From contig CACEWU010000008.1 in NCBI GenBank assembly GCA_902563335.1, positions 1-46,576 of the forward strand: DNA of 46,576 nucleotides. Direction: 5' to 3'. Shown one piece after another: positions 4,489 to 23,591 of the stretch (its first letter is position 1; each line of letters starts with the position of its first letter). The DNA is from an uncultured Prochlorococcus sp. (lineage in GTDB: Bacteria; Cyanobacteriota; Cyanobacteriia; PCC-6307; Cyanobiaceae). A program made the position numbers and the translations under genes. The notes under the pieces were generated by a model. The model ran no database searches. It saw only the letters and a list, made by a program, of their open reading frames with translations, and was not told the DNA's origin.

Positions 4489-6264
4489 ATGGCAAACTCC
4501 AAATCAATAGCCACGGTTAAAACGACCCATCAAGCTCCCAAGCTTTCCTTGCAATGTGCCCCTATTGGCACAGACAGCATCACTTTCAGATCTTTAGACT
4601 GGGAGCGAAGTCGTTTTGATATTGAATTTGGCCTTCGCAATGGCACCACATACAACAGCTTTCTTATAAAAGGATCTAAAACCGCGCTAATAGATACAAG
4701 TCACTTAAAATTTCAAAAAATTTGGATTCAATTGCTCAAAGAGGAAATTAATCCTCGTGATATTGATTTCCTAATAGTCAGTCATACCGAGCCAGATCAT
4801 TCAGGGCTCATTGGCGATGTACTCAATCTCAACCCTGAAATAGAAATTTTAGGATCAAAAGTAGCCATACAATTTCTGAACAACCAACTACATCGACCTT
4901 TTAATTCTAGAACAGTAAAAAGTGGTGATGAATTAAATCTTGGAAGCAATCCTTCAAGTGGAATTGACCATCGAATCGAATTCCTCAGCGCACCAAATCT
5001 ACATTGGCCAGATACAATTTTTTCCTTTGATCATGGCACTGGAGTGTTATATACATGTGATGCTTTTGGACTTCATTATTGCTCAGATGAACTTTTTGAT
5101 AACAACCCAGAAATTATAGCGCCCGATTTTCGTTTCTATTACGAATGCCTAATGGCTCCAAATTCAAGAAGTGTTCTACAAGCACTTAAGCGCATAAATA
5201 AATTGCCAGAAATAAGCACAATTGCAGTAGGTCATGGCCCTCTCCTGCATCATCATCTACAGCTATGGAAGAACAACTACTATGAATGGAGTAGCTCAAG
5301 AACTAAAGGGAATAAATATGCTGCTGTATGTTATTTAAGCCAATATGGATATTGTGATCAACTAAGCCAAGCTATTGCACATGGCATTGGAAAAACAGGC
5401 GCACATGTGCAACTAATAGATCTTCGAGGATCTGATGCTCAAGAACTCAGTGCTCTTATTGGAGAAGCAGAAGCTGTAGTAGTCCCTACATGGCCTAGCC
5501 AATCAGACTTCGAACTCCAAAATTCAATAAGCACTCTTCTTGCAGCTTTAACACAAAAACAATGGATTGCTATATATGAAGCATATGGCAATAGCGACAA
5601 CCCTATTGATTCAGTAGCCAATCAGCTACGTAGCCTTGGGCAAAAAGAAGCCTTTGCTCCATTACGAATCAAGGAAATGCCAGATGGCAGTACATATCAA
5701 AGATTTGAGGAGGCAGGCACTGATCTCGGACAATTACTCAATCGTCAAGAAAACATCTCAACAATGAAAAGTTTGGATGGTGATCTGGATAAAGCATTAG
5801 GTCGCCTATCTGGTGGACTTTATGTTGTAACAGCAAGTCAAGGAGAAGGTAATAATCACAGACAAAGTGCAATGGTCGCAAGTTGGATAAGTCAAGCCAG
5901 TTTCAATCCGCCAGGACTAACAGTTGCAGTCGCAAAAGATCGAGCAATTGAGACATTAATGCAGGTTGGAGATAATTTTGTTGTCAATGTACTTAAAGAT
6001 GACAACTATCAAATCTTATTAAGGCATTTCCTTAAACGATTTCCACCAGGAGCAGATCGTTTTGAAGGTGTAAACATCCTTAAAGATGTTGCTAAAGGTG
6101 GGCCAGTTCTTGCAGATTCTCTTGCCTTTTTAAGTTGTCGAGTTGAAAAAAGATTAGAGACTCCAGATCACTGGATCATTTACTCAATAGTCGAACAGGG
6201 AAATATCTCAGACACACATGCCAATACAGCGATCCATCATCGCAAAGTAGGAAACCACTACTAA
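4489..6264 (+). CDS. flv3: Flavodiiron protein Flv3 (O2 photoreduction)
   Basis: A cyanobacterial class C flavodiiron protein, 591 residues. Flv1/Flv3 reduce O2 to water with electrons from photosystem I (Mehler-like reaction), protecting it in fluctuating light. Order: metallo-beta-lactamase-like diiron domain (about 30-265), flavodoxin-like domain (about 275-415), C-terminal flavin reductase domain (about 435-591, with MVASWISQASFNPPG). All canonical diiron ligands are visible: HTEPDH (H99, E101, D103, H104), H172, D191 and H249. The full ligand set marks it as the Flv3 type. The unusual flavodoxin motif SQYGYCDQL is, as I recall, normal for Flv3. The stop shares a base with the next start (TAATG), so flv3-flv1 is an operon. 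Confidence 0.95.
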   Translation: MANSKSIATVKTTHQAPKLSLQCAPIGTDSITFRSLDWERSRFDIEFGLRNGTTYNSFLIKGSKTALIDTSHLKFQKIWIQLLKEEINPRDIDFLIVSHTEPDHSGLIGDVLNLNPEIEILGSKVAIQFLNNQLHRPFNSRTVKSGDELNLGSNPSSGIDHRIEFLSAPNLHWPDTIFSFDHGTGVLYTCDAFGLHYCSDELFDNNPEIIAPDFRFYYECLMAPNSRSVLQALKRINKLPEISTIAVGHGPLLHHHLQLWKNNYYEWSSSRTKGNKYAAVCYLSQYGYCDQLSQAIAHGIGKTGAHVQLIDLRGSDAQELSALIGEAEAVVVPTWPSQSDFELQNSISTLLAALTQKQWIAIYEAYGNSDNPIDSVANQLRSLGQKEAFAPLRIKEMPDGSTYQRFEEAGTDLGQLLNRQENISTMKSLDGDLDKALGRLSGGLYVVTASQGEGNNHRQSAMVASWISQASFNPPGLTVAVAKDRAIETLMQVGDNFVVNVLKDDNYQILLRHFLKRFPPGADRFEGVNILKDVAKGGPVLADSLAFLSCRVEKRLETPDHWIIYSIVEQGNISDTHANTAIHHRKVGNHY

Positions 6265-8117
6265 TGACAAATTCATCTGATCAACCATGCATAACACCCA
6301 TAGACAGGTTGCAAACAATCCATATCCCAATTGAATCTGGTCTTATTAGTCTGCGTGGACTGAGTCCTAAGAGACTGAGGTTTGAGCTTGAATACGGTTT
6401 AGAACGTGGTAGTACAGATAACAGTTTCTTATTTGCCGATTTTGAGAATGCTAAGACTCCTTGTGATCAAGCAATACTAATACATCCACCAGGAGCAACT
6501 TATGCCGACGTTTTCATACCAGCTTTAAAAGATGCTCTCCCAAAAGGGATCATCAAGCTTCTAGTTGTAGTTGGACATGTCAATCCTAATAGGGTCTCAA
6601 TGCTCAGGCAATTAACAGAAGCTTACCCTCAAATAGAATTAATTAGTTCCAATCCAGGTGCGAAATTACTTAAAGAGCTTTGGGTAAATCAAAAACCAAA
6701 TCGATCCAAAAGTTCAGAAGACAAAATACATCCTTCACTTCCTGCATTGCCAAAAATCAAGATAATTAAGCAAGAAGAGGAGCTCCCAACCAATCAAAAG
6801 TACAAATTACGTCTACTACCAGCACCTTCACCAAGGTGGCCAGGAGGATTGCTCGCATTTGAAGAACATCTAGGTCTGCTAATGAGTGACAAATTTTTCT
6901 CTGCTCATCTATGCACCAGAGATTGGGCTGAAGCTAATCCAAGTAGTACAGAAGAAGAACGTCGACATTTTTATGACTGTTTGATGGCACCGATGTCAAG
7001 TCAAGTGGCCTCAATTGTCAATAAGCTAGAGGAACTAGATATACAAAGTATTGCCCCTGGACATGGTCCAGCAATAGATACAAGTTGGCGTAGTTTATTA
7101 AATGACTACCAAAGGTGGAGTGAAGGACAACAACGAGCAAATATGAGAGTGATATTGCTCTTCGCGAGTGCCTATGGAAACACAGCAGCTATTGCAGATG
7201 CCTTAGCAAATGGTGTCAGTCGAACAGGTATTCAAGTAGAAATTCTCAATTGTGAGTTCATTTCACCAAATGATCTGATGAAGCACATCCGAAAAGCAGA
7301 TGCTTATCTAATCGGTTCACCTACCCTTGGAGGACATGCACCAACTCCAATAGTTTCCGCTCTAGGTACTCTCCTAGCAGAAGGAGATAGAAATAAACCA
7401 GTGGGAGTTTTTGGTAGTTATGGCTGGAGTGGCGAAGCTGTAGATCTACTCGAACAAAAATTGCGTGATGGTGGTTTCAAATTTGGCTTCCAAACAATCA
7501 AAATAAAATTTAGTCCAGATCCGAAAATGGTAAAAACAATTGAAGAAACAGGCACCATTTTTGGCAGAAACTTACTCACAACCCAACAGCGACGACAACG
7601 ACGAACCACTGAAGGCATGATTGCCAGTCGTAGTAATCCTGCAATATTGGCCTTAGGTCGTATCGTGGGGTCTCTTTGTATTTTGACTAGTCGAAAAAAG
7701 CAAGCAGAAGGGACCTTAAGTGGCGCAATGGTTGCCAGCTGGATCAGTCAAGCAAGCTTTGCTCCGCCAGGCATAAGTATTGCTGTAGCAAAAGACAGAG
7801 CCGTAGAAAACCTCTTACACAAAGACGATCGATTTGCACTCAATATTCTTGCTGCTGGGCGTCACAACAAACTGATGAAGCAATTTTTACATCCTTTTCC
7901 ACCAGGAGCCGATCGTTTTTCCGGACTCAAACTAGATCTCAGCCCCAATGGCCAACCATTACTACCTGATGCCTTAGCTTGGCTAGAAGGATCTGTCAAA
8001 CAACGAATGGAATGCAGTGATCATTGGCTGATCTATGCAGAAATTAATTACGGAAAAGTGTTAGATAATGATGGTGTCACTGCAGTACATCAACGCAAAA
8101 CCGGAGCAAATTATTAA
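6264..8117 (+). CDS. flv1: Flavodiiron protein Flv1 (ligand-poor partner of Flv3)
   Basis: The second class C flavodiiron protein, 617 residues, with the same three-domain order: beta-lactamase-like, flavodoxin-like from about residue 292 (FASAYGNTA) and flavin reductase from about 450 (MVASWISQASFAPPG). The diiron site is altered. The HxExDH motif reads HVNPNR (H105, N107, N109, R110), and the next ligand region reads APSPRWPG where Flv3 has APNLHWPD. This loss is the known mark of Flv1/Flv2-type subunits, which act with an Flv3/Flv4-type partner. The altered site is therefore expected and not a sign of decay. Translation is coupled to flv3 through TAATG. Confidence 0.95.
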   Translation: MTNSSDQPCITPIDRLQTIHIPIESGLISLRGLSPKRLRFELEYGLERGSTDNSFLFADFENAKTPCDQAILIHPPGATYADVFIPALKDALPKGIIKLLVVVGHVNPNRVSMLRQLTEAYPQIELISSNPGAKLLKELWVNQKPNRSKSSEDKIHPSLPALPKIKIIKQEEELPTNQKYKLRLLPAPSPRWPGGLLAFEEHLGLLMSDKFFSAHLCTRDWAEANPSSTEEERRHFYDCLMAPMSSQVASIVNKLEELDIQSIAPGHGPAIDTSWRSLLNDYQRWSEGQQRANMRVILLFASAYGNTAAIADALANGVSRTGIQVEILNCEFISPNDLMKHIRKADAYLIGSPTLGGHAPTPIVSALGTLLAEGDRNKPVGVFGSYGWSGEAVDLLEQKLRDGGFKFGFQTIKIKFSPDPKMVKTIEETGTIFGRNLLTTQQRRQRRTTEGMIASRSNPAILALGRIVGSLCILTSRKKQAEGTLSGAMVASWISQASFAPPGISIAVAKDRAVENLLHKDDRFALNILAAGRHNKLMKQFLHPFPPGADRFSGLKLDLSPNGQPLLPDALAWLEGSVKQRMECSDHWLIYAEINYGKVLDNDGVTAVHQRKTGANY

Positions 8118-18139: not shown

Positions 18140-18532
18140 ATGATCAAACATCGATATTCCTTTGCTCTTCGACTCACAACTATAGGCTTAGCATGCATTG
18201 CTACGCTAGGGACTGGTGGTATTGCAGCCAGCACAGAAACTGGAAAGAAAGGTGCACAGATTTATTGTTTCATGCGCACAAATGGCAATGAACACGAAGT
18301 CAGTTGGAATGCGGCCTATGCGGTCATTAAACGCCAAACAAGCGGCATATTCAAAACTTCACCTAAACATGCTGCCGTAATGATTATAGAGACGGTTGTT
18401 CAAAATCCTAGTGAATATAAAAATTGTGGTAGCCATCTTGGTGATCTATTTGCTAAATCCAATACAAACAATGATAACATTAATAACTCTTATGATAGCA
18501 AAACAACTACTAAAGATAGATATAGCTATTGA
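18140..18532 (+). CDS. Secreted small protein of unknown function
   Basis: A 130-residue protein with an N-terminal signal peptide (basic MIKHRYSFALR, hydrophobic LTTIGLACIATLGTGGIAAS, cleavage probably after an Ala near residue 30). The mature part has two cysteines in CFMRTNGNEHEVSWNAAYAV and YKNCGSHLGDLF that could form a disulfide, and an Asn/Ser/Thr-rich low-complexity tail. I recall relatives in marine picocyanobacteria (possibly DUF6554) but cannot confirm. It is probably periplasmic or lumenal. It is convergent with the helicase gene, 4 bp apart. Confidence 0.75.
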   Translation: MIKHRYSFALRLTTIGLACIATLGTGGIAASTETGKKGAQIYCFMRTNGNEHEVSWNAAYAVIKRQTSGIFKTSPKHAAVMIIETVVQNPSEYKNCGSHLGDLFAKSNTNNDNINNSYDSKTTTKDRYSY

Positions 18533-18536
18533 TTAG

Positions 18537-20099
18537 TTATTGTTCTTTTATCTTAGCTAGATATGTCTTAAACATAGCAGGTAATGTTTGCCGTGTTAAG
18601 GATACTCGTCGTGTTCCCATAAGTACCTCTATTCGTTCAGCTTTATTCGCAACCAAGCCATCTACAAGTTCATCGATAAAACCCAATTTAAACCAATGAC
18701 TTGTTAGTGGACCATCCATCCCAAGTCGATGGCAACGATCCTCTGCCTGATCAACCTCTCCTGGAGTCCAAGGCCTTTCCAGCAAGACAACATCTCTAGC
18801 ACGATGCAATGTATAGCCAAGTCCAGCTGCACCATATGTAGCCAATAACAAAGATTCTTTTCCTGATTGAAACCTATTAATTGCTAATTCTCTTTCTTCC
18901 ATTGACTGTTTACCAGTTAATAACTCACCCCCCAACTCTTGATGAAGAAAGTGAAGAGGCTTTAAAAAGCTACTAAACAGAACAACTGGTCTTTTTAAGC
19001 TACGAAACTGTCCTAACAACTTGCTAACTGCCGGCAATTTAAACTCTGCTGATATTTGACGAAGTGCAGAAAGCACTACCAATGACTCAGCATCTGAATT
19101 CACCAAACCCTGTTCAATACGGAAACGATAATCATCAACAATCAAAGTCAGGCGATGCTCAAATCCCTTGCGTTCCTCGGGAGGTAGTACGACCGGATAC
19201 TCTTGACGCAACTTTGGCGGCAACTCCAATATACTTTTCTTAAAGCGGTTAAGAATTACAGGTTGAACTAAACGCCGTAGCTCTATCAAATTGCTAGCCC
19301 CAGTGCTATCCCAAGTTCGTCGACCATTCATCTGTTTCCAATGACCACAACAAAATTTTTTCTCAAAGTCTCTTTGATTAGATGCCAATGGATGATCAAT
19401 AGCCGCCAGAAGTGGATATAATTCTGAAGGTCTACCATTTTTCATAGGCGTACCAGTTACTAACCAAATACATGTAAGACGAGGATGACGCGCCAATCGC
19501 AATAAAGCTTTTGTCCGCTTTGCTTTTAAACGCTGTGCGAAATGAGCCTCATCTACTATTAATAACGTCCCATTATTAAATAACTCCTTTGGAATGCTTG
19601 CCCAACTTTGCAAATCTATCTGAACTCCAACTGCTTTTGCCTCCTGTTGCCAATGAGTATGTAACCCAACTGGAGCAATAACCATCAGGCGAACATCACT
19701 AGCTCTCACAATTGCTCGAGCAGCAAGCAAAGTAGTTACTGTTTTGCCTAAACCCATCTCATCAGCCAACAACGCTCCACTTCTCGACATAAGCCAACGC
19801 GCTCCAGAGCATTGATGTTGTAATGGTCTGCGGCCATCCAACAAAGGCTTTTCAAATTCTGCATGCCTAAGCAAATCAGGATAAGGAGGCAAAGGAGGCA
19901 AAGGATCTCTCAGCAATGTCAACCACTGAGAGAACTCATCCTGCAAGAAAAAGCGCGAGGCGAATTGTTCGTTAAGACATTCAGCTGCAGAAAAAGGAAA
20001 TTCCCAGCCTTTGACAAAGCCATGCCAAGTGCCAGGTGGCCGAATTTTTCTTAACTGGGCATGAGTGACAGCATCAAAAGGAAAAGATACTTGTATCAA
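18537..20099 (-). CDS. SNF2-family DNA helicase, HARP/SMARCAL1-like
   Basis: A compact SNF2 ATPase of 520 residues. Residues 1-60 contain LRKIRPPGTWHGFVKGWEFP, which resembles the HARP motif of SMARCAL1-type annealing helicases (R-x-x-W-x-x-x-x-K-x-W-x-F-P). Helicase motifs follow: Walker A DEMGLGKT (about 114-121), Walker B DEAH (about 182), motif III LVTGTPMKN, and C-terminal motifs V/VI in YGAAGLGYTLHRARDVVLLE and QAEDRCHRLG. Such enzymes rewind RPA- or SSB-coated DNA and remodel stalled forks. It is divergent from the HNH nuclease gene across 207 bp. The HARP assignment is by pattern and needs a profile search. Confidence 0.88.
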   Translation of the reverse strand: MIQVSFPFDAVTHAQLRKIRPPGTWHGFVKGWEFPFSAAECLNEQFASRFFLQDEFSQWLTLLRDPLPPLPPYPDLLRHAEFEKPLLDGRRPLQHQCSGARWLMSRSGALLADEMGLGKTVTTLLAARAIVRASDVRLMVIAPVGLHTHWQQEAKAVGVQIDLQSWASIPKELFNNGTLLIVDEAHFAQRLKAKRTKALLRLARHPRLTCIWLVTGTPMKNGRPSELYPLLAAIDHPLASNQRDFEKKFCCGHWKQMNGRRTWDSTGASNLIELRRLVQPVILNRFKKSILELPPKLRQEYPVVLPPEERKGFEHRLTLIVDDYRFRIEQGLVNSDAESLVVLSALRQISAEFKLPAVSKLLGQFRSLKRPVVLFSSFLKPLHFLHQELGGELLTGKQSMEERELAINRFQSGKESLLLATYGAAGLGYTLHRARDVVLLERPWTPGEVDQAEDRCHRLGMDGPLTSHWFKLGFIDELVDGLVANKAERIEVLMGTRRVSLTRQTLPAMFKTYLAKIKEQ

Positions 20100-20306
20100 G
20101 CCAGCCTCAGTTAAGCCTAAGTAGCAACTTGAAATTGATTCAAACGGAAACTCTCCGAATCAAAGAATATCAATTTACTTAGCTACTCAAAATCAACTAA
20201 GGGAGAATGCGCCTTAATACAAAACCATAGAAAAAACAGAAGACAATACTCAAGACATTGACGAGAGTGTCAGTCACGGCAAACTACGCTTAACCGAGAT
20301 GCTCGG

Positions 20307-20711
20307 ATGCAAGCAAGGGACGCCGTTTTCCTCGAAGAGCTCTGTCCCAAATTACGTGTCCGACGATGGCGACAATCACTACACACATATACCGACAAAA
20401 GTTGCATCTATTGTGGCAAGCCTTCTGAATCTATAGATCATGTTCTGCCACGCAGCCACGGCGGATTAAGTATCACAGAAAATTGTGTGCCAGCATGTTT
20501 AGCGTGTAACGGTGATAAGTCAAACAACGATGCCTTTGACTGGTATAGGCGTCAACGCTTCTATGACCCTAGACGAGCAATGGCAATTCGAGCTTGGATA
20601 GACGGAGATATACGCCTAGCTTTAAGGTTGTTGCAATGGGCTAAACCAAGCCACATAGAGCCTAACCAAAACAAAAAAACAAATACAGACTGGGCTTTAC
20701 AGGCCGCTTAA
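20307..20711 (+). CDS. HNH endonuclease
   Basis: A 134-residue protein with a complete HNH core: zinc pair CIYCGKPSESIDHVLPRSHG (CxxC plus the catalytic D-H), the Asn in SITENCVPAC, and a second CxxC in CLACNGDKS. The flanks add a basic N-terminus (LRVRRWRQSLHT) and an Arg-rich C-terminal helix. It should cut DNA, but specificity is unknown. Stand-alone HNH proteins of this form are common in cyanobacteria and need not be mobile; no intron or phage gene is next to it. Its head-to-head position with a SMARCAL1-like helicase suggests a repair role (inference). Confidence 0.88.
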   Translation: MQARDAVFLEELCPKLRVRRWRQSLHTYTDKSCIYCGKPSESIDHVLPRSHGGLSITENCVPACLACNGDKSNNDAFDWYRRQRFYDPRRAMAIRAWIDGDIRLALRLLQWAKPSHIEPNQNKKTNTDWALQAA

Positions 20712-20965: not shown

Positions 20966-21895
20966 ATGCTTCAAGATCTTGTCAAGCAATGCACCCCACT
21001 TCCTCCAAACGCAAAGTTACTAGTATTAGGAGGTGGTTTTAGTGGTCAACATGTTGCTGCTTTAGCTAAACGACTTGGTAGCAATGTGATTTGTAGTCGA
21101 CGAAAAAAAGACAAGCCAGGTGCAAATGTTGTTTTCGACAGCGCGACAAAACAAACCCCTGCTCCAACAGCACTAAAAGAAATAACTCATCTAATTAGCT
21201 GCATACCTCCAGAAGCCAATGGAGAAGATCCAGTAATTAGCCTTTTGAGTAAGCAATTACACGACATGCCCTTGCAATGGGTTGGCTATCTCTCCACAAC
21301 AGGGGTATATGGCGACCATAAAGGAAACTGGGTTACAGAAGCTGATCTTCCAAGACCGCAACAACTTAGAAGCAAGAGAAGACTATCGTGTGAGCAAGCA
21401 TGGCAAGCTTCGGGTCTTCCCGTACAAATTCTTCGCCTCCCAGGAATATATGGACCAGGCAGATCAGCTCTTGAAGCAATAAATAAAGGAAAAAGCAAAA
21501 TGATAGATAAGCCAGGACAAGTTTTTTCTAGAATTCATGTAGATGATATTGCCGGAGCTATTTTTCATCTCATTAAATTAGCGTCTACAGGGATCAAGCC
21601 AAAAATAATCAACGTTGCTGACAATCAACCATCAACCAATGTTGAAGTTCTTGAATATGCAGCATCTCTACTAGGATCTTCATTGCCTCCTATCCAACCA
21701 TTCGAAATCGCATCAAAAGAAATGAGTCCAATGGCTCTTTCTTTTTGGGAAGAAAATCGTAGAGTGAGTAATCAAATGCTCTGCAAGAAACTTGGATATC
21801 CTCTATTGCATCCTAATTATCAAGTCGGGCTTAGAGACTGCTTAAACCAAAGAAATCAATCTTCTAGCTATTCATCATTTGTCGACTTTGAATGA
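20966..21895 (+). CDS. NAD(P)-dependent epimerase/dehydratase-like SDR protein
   Basis: A 309-residue Rossmann-fold protein of the extended/atypical SDR group. The N-terminal nucleotide site is LLVLGGGFSGQHVAALAKRL, an atypical GGGxxG pattern followed by SRR, suggesting NADP. The active-site region is YLSTTGVYGDHKGNWVTEAD, followed by LRLPGIYGPGRSAL and IHVDDIAGAI, all typical of the nucleotide-sugar epimerase-like family (YeeZ-like). The substrate cannot be told. It runs in the direction of pdxA with a small antisense gene between, and its 3' end overlaps that gene by 28 bp. Confidence 0.85.
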   Translation: MLQDLVKQCTPLPPNAKLLVLGGGFSGQHVAALAKRLGSNVICSRRKKDKPGANVVFDSATKQTPAPTALKEITHLISCIPPEANGEDPVISLLSKQLHDMPLQWVGYLSTTGVYGDHKGNWVTEADLPRPQQLRSKRRLSCEQAWQASGLPVQILRLPGIYGPGRSALEAINKGKSKMIDKPGQVFSRIHVDDIAGAIFHLIKLASTGIKPKIINVADNQPSTNVEVLEYAASLLGSSLPPIQPFEIASKEMSPMALSFWEENRRVSNQMLCKKLGYPLLHPNYQVGLRDCLNQRNQSSSYSSFVDFE

Positions 21896-22068
21896 TCAGT
21901 ATCAAACCTTTCAAGAATAAACTTAGACCAATCCAAGGGTTGTTCTGGGTCAATATGACTGAAACCCACTTCATGCAAAAACTGACTCCACTTAATAACC
22001 AACCAGCCATCTCGAAGACCAGCTCCAATGCCGTAAAACAAAAACCCAATCAACAACCAACGAAACAT
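21868..22068 (-). CDS. Small membrane protein lying antisense between the SDR gene and pdxA
   Basis: A 66-residue protein: hydrophobic N-terminal helix MFRWLLIGFLFYGIGAGLRD, then an amphipathic and acidic part (WSQFLHEVGFSHIDPEQPLD, WSKFILERF). The helix followed by a balanced soluble tail looks genuine, and the opposite-strand frame does not. Its start codon shares the tetramer CATG (22066-22069) with the pdxA start on the other strand, and its 3' end overlaps the SDR gene by 28 bp. The whole gene is therefore antisense to any SDR-pdxA read-through mRNA. Function unknown. Confidence 0.65.
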   Translation of the reverse strand: MFRWLLIGFLFYGIGAGLRDGWLVIKWSQFLHEVGFSHIDPEQPLDWSKFILERFDTDHSKSTNDE

Positions 22069-23092
22069 GGCAGATCTAAATCAATATCACGAAGCTAAAC
22101 ACTGTGTAGCCATCTGCATGGGAGATCCAGCAGGAATTGGAATAGAAATAACACTAAAAGCCATTGGATCATACAAATTACCCCTAGGAATTAAACCCGT
22201 ATTAGTGGGCTGCAGAAGAACTATTGAAATGGTCTATTCACAATTAACTGCACAAGGGGTCTCGCCGTTAGCCAACCCAAAAAATTTACATATTGAAGAT
22301 TTTCCATTCAAAGGCTCATTCACACCAGGTGAACCAAATGCAAATACTGGTGAAGCTAGTTTTCTTTGGTTAAAAAATGCTATCAATTTCGTACAAAAAG
22401 GACACGCTAGAGCCTTAGTAACAGGACCAATCGCTAAACATGCCTGGCATGAAGCTGGGCATTGCTATCCAGGACAAACAGAGCTGCTTGGAGAACTTAC
22501 TGGCATTGATCACCCTTCAATGCTTTTCACTGCGAAGTCTCCAGAAAACGGTTTGCGGCTAAATACCCTTCTTGCAACAACACATTTACCACTCTCAAAA
22601 ATTCATATAGAGCTAACACCTGAATTAATCAGTTCTAAACTTGATACCCTTGCTGACTTCTGTCAAAGATTTAAACCACATCCAAAGCTTGCTGTAGCAG
22701 GTCTAAATCCACATGCTGGAGAAAAAGGGAAACTAGGAGCAGAAGAAATAAATTGGCTATTACCAACATTGCAAAAGTGGCAAGCAAAAAATCAATCAAT
22801 AACTCTTAGTGGGCCTATTCCTCCAGACACTTGTTGGATTAATGCAGCCAAAGCATGGCAAGGAGTAGCCAATACAATCAGCCCAGATGGATTCTTAGCG
22901 TTATATCACGATCAAGGACTAATTCCTATGAAAATAATTGCTTTTGATGAAGCAGTAAATACAACATTAGGACTTCCCTTCATAAGAACATCTCCAGATC
23001 ATGGAACAGCATTTGATATAGCTGGACTTGGATGCGCAAGGCATAACAGCATGCTTGCCGCGATTCAAACGGCATGGGATCTCACTAATTGA
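22067..23092 (+). CDS. pdxA: 4-hydroxythreonine-4-phosphate dehydrogenase
   Basis: The NAD-dependent oxidative decarboxylation step of the DXP-dependent pyridoxal phosphate pathway; 341 residues, the normal length. The N-terminal GDPAGIGIEITLKAI is the PdxA signature. The metal/substrate regions are visible as LVTGPIAKHAW, GLNPHAGEKGKLGAEE and ALYHDQGLIPMKI, and the C-terminal RTSPDHGTAFDIAG is also conserved. The start overlaps the antisense small gene's start. It ends 1 bp from the convergent accB gene, so transcription of the two may interfere. Confidence 0.96.
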   Translation: MADLNQYHEAKHCVAICMGDPAGIGIEITLKAIGSYKLPLGIKPVLVGCRRTIEMVYSQLTAQGVSPLANPKNLHIEDFPFKGSFTPGEPNANTGEASFLWLKNAINFVQKGHARALVTGPIAKHAWHEAGHCYPGQTELLGELTGIDHPSMLFTAKSPENGLRLNTLLATTHLPLSKIHIELTPELISSKLDTLADFCQRFKPHPKLAVAGLNPHAGEKGKLGAEEINWLLPTLQKWQAKNQSITLSGPIPPDTCWINAAKAWQGVANTISPDGFLALYHDQGLIPMKIIAFDEAVNTTLGLPFIRTSPDHGTAFDIAGLGCARHNSMLAAIQTAWDLTN

Positions 23093-23093
23093 T

Positions 23094-23591
23094 TTAAGAA
23101 GGTTTAACTCTCATCAGAACTTGGCCAAACTCTACTGGCGTTCCATTATCAATCAGAATTTCTATTACTTCTCCACTGACCTCTGATTCAAGTTCATTCA
23201 TCAGTTTCATAGCTTCAAGAATGCAAACCGTCTGTCCAACACCAATACGACTGCCAACTTCTACAAAAGCTGGCTCTTCCGGTCCTGGTGCTCGATAGAA
23301 AGTTCCTACCATTGGAGCAGTTATATCAACTAAATCTGCTCGTGATGCGGGGACAGGAGGCGGAGGACTGCTAGGAGTAACAGTATCTACCTTCACCTGT
23401 GATGGGGATGAAGTAGGAGCTTCAATAAGCGAAGGAACTGCTTCAGAAGAGACAAATGCGGTTGCAGAAGGAAAGCTCCGCCTTATTTCAAGGCGAAAGT
23501 CTTCGCCTTCCAAACGAAATTCCTGAATATCACTGTCAGCTAAAGCATCCAGCAATTTGTGAAGTTGATCGTGATCAAGCTGCATGGTCAT
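23094..23591 (-). CDS. accB: Biotin carboxyl carrier protein of acetyl-CoA carboxylase
   Basis: Carries the biotin that AccC carboxylates and the AccA/AccD transferase uses to make malonyl-CoA; 165 residues. The C-terminal biotinyl domain contains the biotinylation site CILEAMKLMNELESE, with the Lys of EAMKLM modified. A Pro/Ser/Val-rich flexible linker (about 40-85) and a short N-terminal helix pair (LHKLLDALADSDIQEFRLEG) precede it, as usual. Its ATG overlaps the efp stop by one base (TAATG), so efp-accB is translationally coupled, an order I recall as conserved in cyanobacteria. Confidence 0.97.
   Translation of the reverse strand: MTMQLDHDQLHKLLDALADSDIQEFRLEGEDFRLEIRRSFPSATAFVSSEAVPSLIEAPTSSPSQVKVDTVTPSSPPPPVPASRADLVDITAPMVGTFYRAPGPEEPAFVEVGSRIGVGQTVCILEAMKLMNELESEVSGEVIEILIDNGTPVEFGQVLMRVKPS

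Follow-up and report, generated by a model that had tools for sequence, protein, structure and literature searches.

Do a compact SNF2-family helicase and an HNH nuclease, encoded head to head in a cyanobacterial genome, make up a bacterial ZRANB3 that is split into two proteins, or do they lie side by side for another reason? The question is raised by a stretch of 46,576 nucleotides from an uncultured Prochlorococcus sp. (contig CACEWU010000008.1 of assembly GCA_902563335.1; hereafter the window), which is one of 58 contigs in a 1.25-Mb genome assembly of 65.4% completeness. An original prediction, made from the letters of this DNA, placed the two divergent genes here and proposed that they could form a ZRANB3-like pair. 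Open reading frames (ORFs) and Pfam matches confirm the genes and their divergent arrangement, with 207 bp between them. Our preferred answer, to which we give a probability of roughly 0.6, is that the helicase (the motor) is a prokaryotic HARP-SNF2 enzyme that would rewind forks in the manner of SMARCAL1 or UvsW, that it acts independently of the neighboring HNH protein, and that the two genes are adjacent through frozen gene order. The features on which the argument turns are as follows.

18537–20099, minus strand: predicted SNF2-family ATPase and double-stranded DNA translocase, compact, with a HARP-like N-terminal domain; 520 amino acids, TTG start (ORF and Pfam)
19962–20099, minus strand: putative HARP-like domain, motor residues 1–46 (hhalign against IMG/VR HARP domains, A6 profile against the PDB, and a model)
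20307–20711, plus strand: stand-alone HNH endonuclease; 134 amino acids, ATG start (ORF and PF01844)
20403–20525, plus strand: HNH zinc-binding and catalytic core, residues 33–73 (Pfam range; C33, C36, D44, H45, N59, C64, C67, N68, K71)
20100–20306, no strand: intergenic region of 207 bp between the motor and HNH starts (alignment of 23 intergenic regions)

The motor contains an intact SNF2 ATPase core. Pfam matched SNF2-rel_dom (5.2e-26) and Helicase_C (2.3e-11), and motif I DEMGLGKT (D113), the DEAH box at residues 183–186, motif III TP and motif VI QAEDR are invariant or nearly so among 23 aligned relatives (alignment A1). An AlphaFold model built from nine sequences reached a mean predicted local distance difference test score (pLDDT) of 82.9; its best matches in the PDB were SNF2 remodellers and ATPases, and those in BFVD were phage SNF2 helicases. 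The SMARCAL1 ATPase core was absent among the PDB chains listed for the motor. The TTG start at position 20099 is unconserved, and protein-level conservation (SCYLGLT-like) extends about 10 codons upstream of it; in one relative (L019), no in-frame ATG, GTG or TTG occurs back to the stop ahead of the motor. These alignments make a non-standard start possible.

The N-terminus of the motor was examined through its relatives. Compact SNF2 proteins with the same N-terminal block were obtained by a viral-collection search, and two from IMG/VR pass the cut-off that Pfam itself sets for HARP (PF07443, 25 bits), at 27.0 bits (L257) and 25.7 bits (L279). L219 (5.5e-4), L060, L059 and L149 have matches below the cut-off at the corresponding N-terminal position. 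We then aligned 21 family N-termini (A8) to 14 HARP domains of IMG/VR SNF2 proteins (A7) with hhalign, using 200 column shuffles and the reversed A7 as controls. The two profiles scored 49.5 over 58 columns, against 18.0 for the best of the 200 A7 shuffles and 8.0 for the reversed A7. In the PDB, the A7 profile ranked 4O66, the HARP domain of SMARCAL1, first (E 0.0046), and it aligned to the printed 4O66 fragment with a score of 33.4 (best of 200 shuffles, 19.0); a mixed profile (A6) likewise placed 4O66 first (E 0.0054), with just two matches at E ≤ 10. The modeled N-terminus has the order beta-alpha-beta-beta-alpha, with a mean pLDDT of 76.7 and values of about 80–88 for residues 1–40. The profile comparisons support a divergent HARP-like domain, which appears homologous to HARP through a chain of IMG/VR intermediates and is not a member of the Pfam family, and to this extent the HARP-like motif of the original prediction is borne out. 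The profile search that it had called for was positive through the profiles of relatives and negative for the window protein itself. PF07443 also gave no match in a search of the motor's own genome, and among 339 genomes of the phylum it gave none over the cut-off and nine at E ≤ 0.01, several of them in very short or broken frames.

A number of results weigh against the assignment to HARP. For the window motor, Pfam gives no match to HARP at E ≤ 10, and thus none over its cut-off, and only two of the 23 members of A1, both distant, match PF07443 (L059, 0.014; L060, 0.011). A profile of family N-termini and two distant relatives (A3) did not recover 4O66 among its five PDB matches at E ≤ 10, and the family N-termini alone scored 15.6 against the 4O66 fragment in hhalign, a value equaled by one of 200 shuffles. 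Searches with the N-terminal model returned no HARP entry, either in Foldseek (17 matches, best E 2.5) or in VIA-align (best Z 3.6, to an unrelated chain); because neither gave a meaningful match, the fold neither shows nor excludes HARP. Taken without the IMG/VR intermediates, the apparent link between the family N-termini and HARP is weak.

Whether the motor and the HNH protein work together was approached through gene order. They are adjacent and divergent in 164 of the 166 sampled genomes of the family that have a strong motor match, a count comprising all 105 genomes listing both genes, 58 of the 61 other motor-bearing genomes, and G018, in which the HNH gene starts 300 bp past the motor at a contig end. 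In one exception (G119), the motor is a fragment at a contig edge and no HNH gene was found; in the other (G183; L034, C37), the motor lies directly beside an epimerase gene without its first 43 codons and the HNH gene is missing, an arrangement that reflects either deletion or misassembly. Most of the family's sampled genomes have close relatives of both genes, which makes the observation more than chance, and the conserved neighborhood anticipated by the original prediction extends far beyond one genus. The fusion that it suggested counting did not appear: no fused ORF was present among the loci read, and in the window the two ORFs lie on opposite strands. The genes on either side served as controls or belong to the same block.

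18140–18532, plus strand: DUF6554 gene next to the 3' end of the motor gene, used as a synteny control (PF20191, 2.2e-42)
20966–21895, plus strand: NAD-dependent epimerase-like gene downstream of the HNH gene, synteny control (PF01370, 5.8e-8)
22067–23092, plus strand: pdxA-like gene, member of the frozen block (ORF and synteny)
23094–23591, minus strand: accB-like gene (biotin carrier), member of the frozen block (ORF and synteny)

The names pdxA and accB are presumptive, given from the sequences. Since the flanking genes are conserved as well as the pair, adjacency says little about function. Across the motor-bearing loci of the family and phylum, wherever the stretch reaches, the gene past the motor is DUF6554 and the one past HNH is the epimerase; L008, which ends 450 bp past the motor, has no DUF6554 match, and L009 ends before the epimerase. 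All 20 further genome regions show the same order within reach, orf17263/DUF6554-motor-HNH-epimerase-pdxA-accB (L337 ends inside the HNH gene, in L339 the gap between HNH and epimerase is longer and nothing beyond is in reach, and L336 has no orf17263 match). The block also persists where the motor is gone: five loci (L304, L305, L306, L308 and L309) have DUF6554, HNH, epimerase and pdxA in place, and three more (L041, L061 and L063) keep DUF6554-HNH-epimerase. At L307, both the motor and the HNH gene are gone from between DUF6554 and the epimerase, and the flanks are retained. A 4160-bp IMG/VR contig (L228) carries aminotransferase, DUF6554 and HNH genes with no motor; because this backbone is of host type, the contig was probably mis-sorted into the viral collection.

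Gene content bears on the same question. Among 251 sampled family genomes, a motor match at E ≤ 0.001 occurs in 212, of which 46 are weak (E above 1e-60, mostly 1e-8 to 1e-20) and were taken as paralogues, leaving the 166 strong, hand-read matches used above; an HNH match at E ≤ 0.001 occurs in 247. For presence and absence we used 167 genomes with completeness of 90% or more and contamination of 5% or less, with hand-read thresholds of E < 1e-60 for the motor and E < 1e-30 for the HNH protein; the 19 genomes unlisted for the motor were taken to be those listed for HNH but not for the motor, in agreement with a tally of 137. Counted without correction for shared ancestry, 122 of these near-complete genomes have both genes, 36 have HNH only, nine have neither and none has the motor only. 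The HNH-only genomes fall in genera g4, g11, g18, g40 and g56, which we infer to be Prochlorococcus-like. The lack of motor-only genomes counts against an independent motor, as dependence of the motor on HNH would give the same result; it also fits a handful of deletion events. In a separate scan of 80 loci on genome contigs, most hits were generic large SNF2 proteins, and A3 matched L070, L071 (Synechococcus sp. UW140) and L072 strongly and L069 weakly. From L071 and the hosts of related phage genes, we take the family to be Cyanobiaceae, which includes marine Synechococcus and Prochlorococcus. The SNF2/RAD54 helicase of Prochlorococcus SS120, given a span of about 3.2 kb in a passage of PMC6102989, is probably a larger paralogue.

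Outside the family the association was looked for in the phylum and in IMG/VR. Of the 339 phylum genomes, 32 have a motor match at E ≤ 1e-30; 28 belong to the family, and the other four are G495, G271, G291 and G294. An HNH match at E ≤ 1e-15 occurs in 37 of 292 genomes sampled from the phylum. Of these, 36 belong to the family; the exception is G373, in whose 8-kb stretch there is no motor. The phylum's four distant HARP-SNF2 loci all carry the HARP-like block, and no HNH gene was present in the 15–18 kb read around each. We also counted by hand, with repeats removed, 16 distinct IMG/VR contigs with a HARP-SNF2 ORF identified by profile. One of them has an adjacent HNH gene: on L247, the HARP-SNF2 gene spans 4938–7600 and is followed directly, on its own strand, by a PF01844 HNH gene (9.2e-12), the sole independent recurrence of the pairing. 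A second regular-expression match to an adjacent HNH, on L274, proved false. With one of 16 IMG/VR contigs and none of the four distant loci positive, any recurrence of the association is rare. The IMG/VR proteins themselves (L149, L150, L219, L249, L257, L264, L279 and others) combine HARP and SNF2 as the window motor does, and L149, L150, L219 and L148 share 30–36% identity with it over the aligned length. Unlike the window motor, L219, L264, L269 and L279 have two tandem HARP-like domains, as in vertebrate SMARCAL1, and L249, L251, L257 and L274 have a DUF6011 domain (PF19474) ahead of the HARP region.

The HNH protein has the features of a conserved endonuclease. It matches PF01844 at 7.3e-9 and 36.1 bits, against a curated cut-off of 21.4, over residues 33–73, and HNH_5 at 4.3e-8. 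When 55 distinct sequences from the loci read are compared, the protein is invariant at 55 of its 134 positions, including two CxxC pairs (C33, C36, C64, C67), D44-H45, N59, N68, K71 and a large part of the tail as far as W111, a degree of conservation greater than that of the motor. Passages of PMC5481773 place a helical insert of ZRANB3 at about residues 972–1013, ahead of the catalytic D1020-H1021, and report that its deletion abolishes nuclease activity. Since only seven residues, between C36 and D44, separate the first CxxC pair from the catalytic DH, the window HNH has no room for this insert. A phmmer search of the PDB placed 4H9D, a nicking enzyme of Geobacter, and HNH domains of the Cas9/IscB type nearest, and no chain labeled ZRANB3 appeared up to E 1. 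By sequence the protein would share the zinc-ribbon HNH fold of 4H9D and of Cas9d/IscB; it differs from them in lacking guide-RNA or Cas9 parts and in having N- and C-terminal regions of its own that are highly conserved.

In the 23 aligned intergenic regions, a CATTGAC block is invariant and accompanied by near-invariant bases ahead of the HNH start (window 20249–20306), a promoter-like element for the HNH gene. Two LexA-like box patterns had no match in these regions, and we rejected control by LexA and the SOS response. Genomes of genus g18 have a second HNH copy, 54–60% identical to the window HNH, and second copies with in-frame TAA codons occur at G116 C1:919925-920269, G151 C1:937981-938319 and G135 C1:19030-19383. 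PMM1528, an ultraviolet-induced HNH gene in the portion of PMC2921402 that concerns it, could not be tied to the window HNH.

The motor can be set beside known fork-remodeling enzymes. Its likeness to SMARCAL1/HARP lies in a HARP-like domain directly N-terminal to an SNF2 ATPase; its differences are its length of only 520 residues, a HARP domain that diverges to below the Pfam cut-off, and a start that falls almost at that domain, with no space ahead of it for an RPA-binding region. T4 UvsW and RecG, the prokaryotic fork-regression motors, likely have a similar role, in regressing forks and migrating branches. They are not known to be SNF2 proteins, whereas the window motor is of the SNF2 type; the N-terminal domain of UvsW reportedly resembles HARP. 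According to passages of PMC4035279 that cite earlier work, annealing helicase activity needs no more than one HARP domain and an SNF2 core, and other SNF2 motors gain this activity when given HARP domains; the same source describes Drosophila HARP as active with a single HARP domain. The window motor consists of about 46 HARP-like residues and a complete two-lobe SNF2 ATPase, with nothing else, which would correspond to the minimal active set of SMARCAL1. By analogy to SMARCAL1 and T4 UvsW, the HARP-like domain would bind branched DNA or single-/double-strand junctions, and the motor would translocate on duplex DNA with ATP, reannealing strands and regressing stalled forks or migrating branches. 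It would do so without the neighboring HNH nuclease. The two genes would stay side by side because the block has been frozen by vertical inheritance across the family, with the motor deleted from several lineages and the HNH gene kept.

Three other explanations were weighed against this one. The original prediction suggested that the two genes could be a split ZRANB3. Read as a two-protein, ATP-dependent fork nuclease, this explanation in its fullest form holds that the pair entered the family ancestor together from a phage-like source as a separate prokaryotic counterpart of ZRANB3, that the motor still needs HNH, and that a second use keeps HNH in motor-less lineages. The side-by-side coding of an SNF2 motor and an HNH nuclease does recall ZRANB3/AH2, and near-universal divergent adjacency, the lack of any motor without HNH in near-complete genomes, the joint loss at L307 and the HNH gene next to the L247 motor all speak for it. 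Because both protein families are nearly confined to this cyanobacterial family, they may indeed have arrived together. Against it, DUF6554, the epimerase, pdxA and accB are as conserved as the pair, HNH often persists alone (36 of 167), distant motors have no HNH neighbor in the stretches read save that of L247, and the CxxC-DH spacing is too short for the insert described in the consulted part of PMC5481773. In contrast to ZRANB3/AH2, there are two genes here, the HNH lacks the insert, no NZF or PCNA motifs were matched, and the phmmer search returned no chain labeled ZRANB3 up to E 1. The synteny control and the presence/absence counts led us to set this explanation aside, and we regard it, in its fullest form too, as very improbable. 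The idea of a bacterial ZRANB3 is itself already in print, as "bacterial ZRANB3-like proteins" appear in the Figure 1 legend of PMC5481773.

The motor might instead be a generic SNF2 protein of the RapA or defense-helicase kind, serving transcription recycling or anti-phage defense, with a HARP resemblance of no functional import. Many SNF2 defense helicases in PADLOC and NCBIfam match its core (E down to 2.6e-25), as does the phage DNA helicase family phrog_62 (5.9e-65), but all such matches fall in the shared motor. At 520 residues it has none of the large additional domains found in ZorD, DrmD, DpdE and RapA (models of about 750–1300 positions), its N-terminal domain is conserved and HARP-like, and its flanks are housekeeping genes with no defense island. 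The defense role that the original prediction also entertained thus finds only generic, partial SNF2 or HNH matches in PADLOC, with no specific model and no defense neighborhood, and we consider this explanation unlikely, though less so than a split ZRANB3. A further proposal, compatible with a HARP-SNF2 motor that acts alone, concerns only the nuclease: a chromosomal protein related to the homing-type HNH endonucleases of cyanophages, beside the motor by accident and with a conserved job of its own. Relatives at less than 60% identity occur in 180 phage records, mostly cyanophages, 135 of which are named Synechococcus phage, cyanophage or Prochlorococcus phage. The invariance of 55 of 134 positions, C-terminal tail included, is unlike a decaying selfish gene, and the protein has its own promoter-like block and is retained where the motor is lost. 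We think this account of the nuclease probable.

According to a passage of a 2022 review of fork regression (PMC9368896), SMARCAL1 has no known homologue in prokaryotes, and given that statement the HARP-SNF2 motor is the interesting part of this locus. Our literature search recognized no publication on a bacterial or phage HARP-SNF2 protein, older work on SNF2 classification lying outside its reach, and we do not claim priority. A HARP-SNF2 motor in most of the picocyanobacterial genera sampled would be a small, tractable, minimal version of a human fork-rewinding enzyme, and the tandem-HARP relatives in IMG/VR hint that the combination of HARP and SNF2 is old or phage-borne. The several lineages that have lost the motor would further offer a set of natural knockouts in which to study how the most abundant phototrophs repair their DNA.

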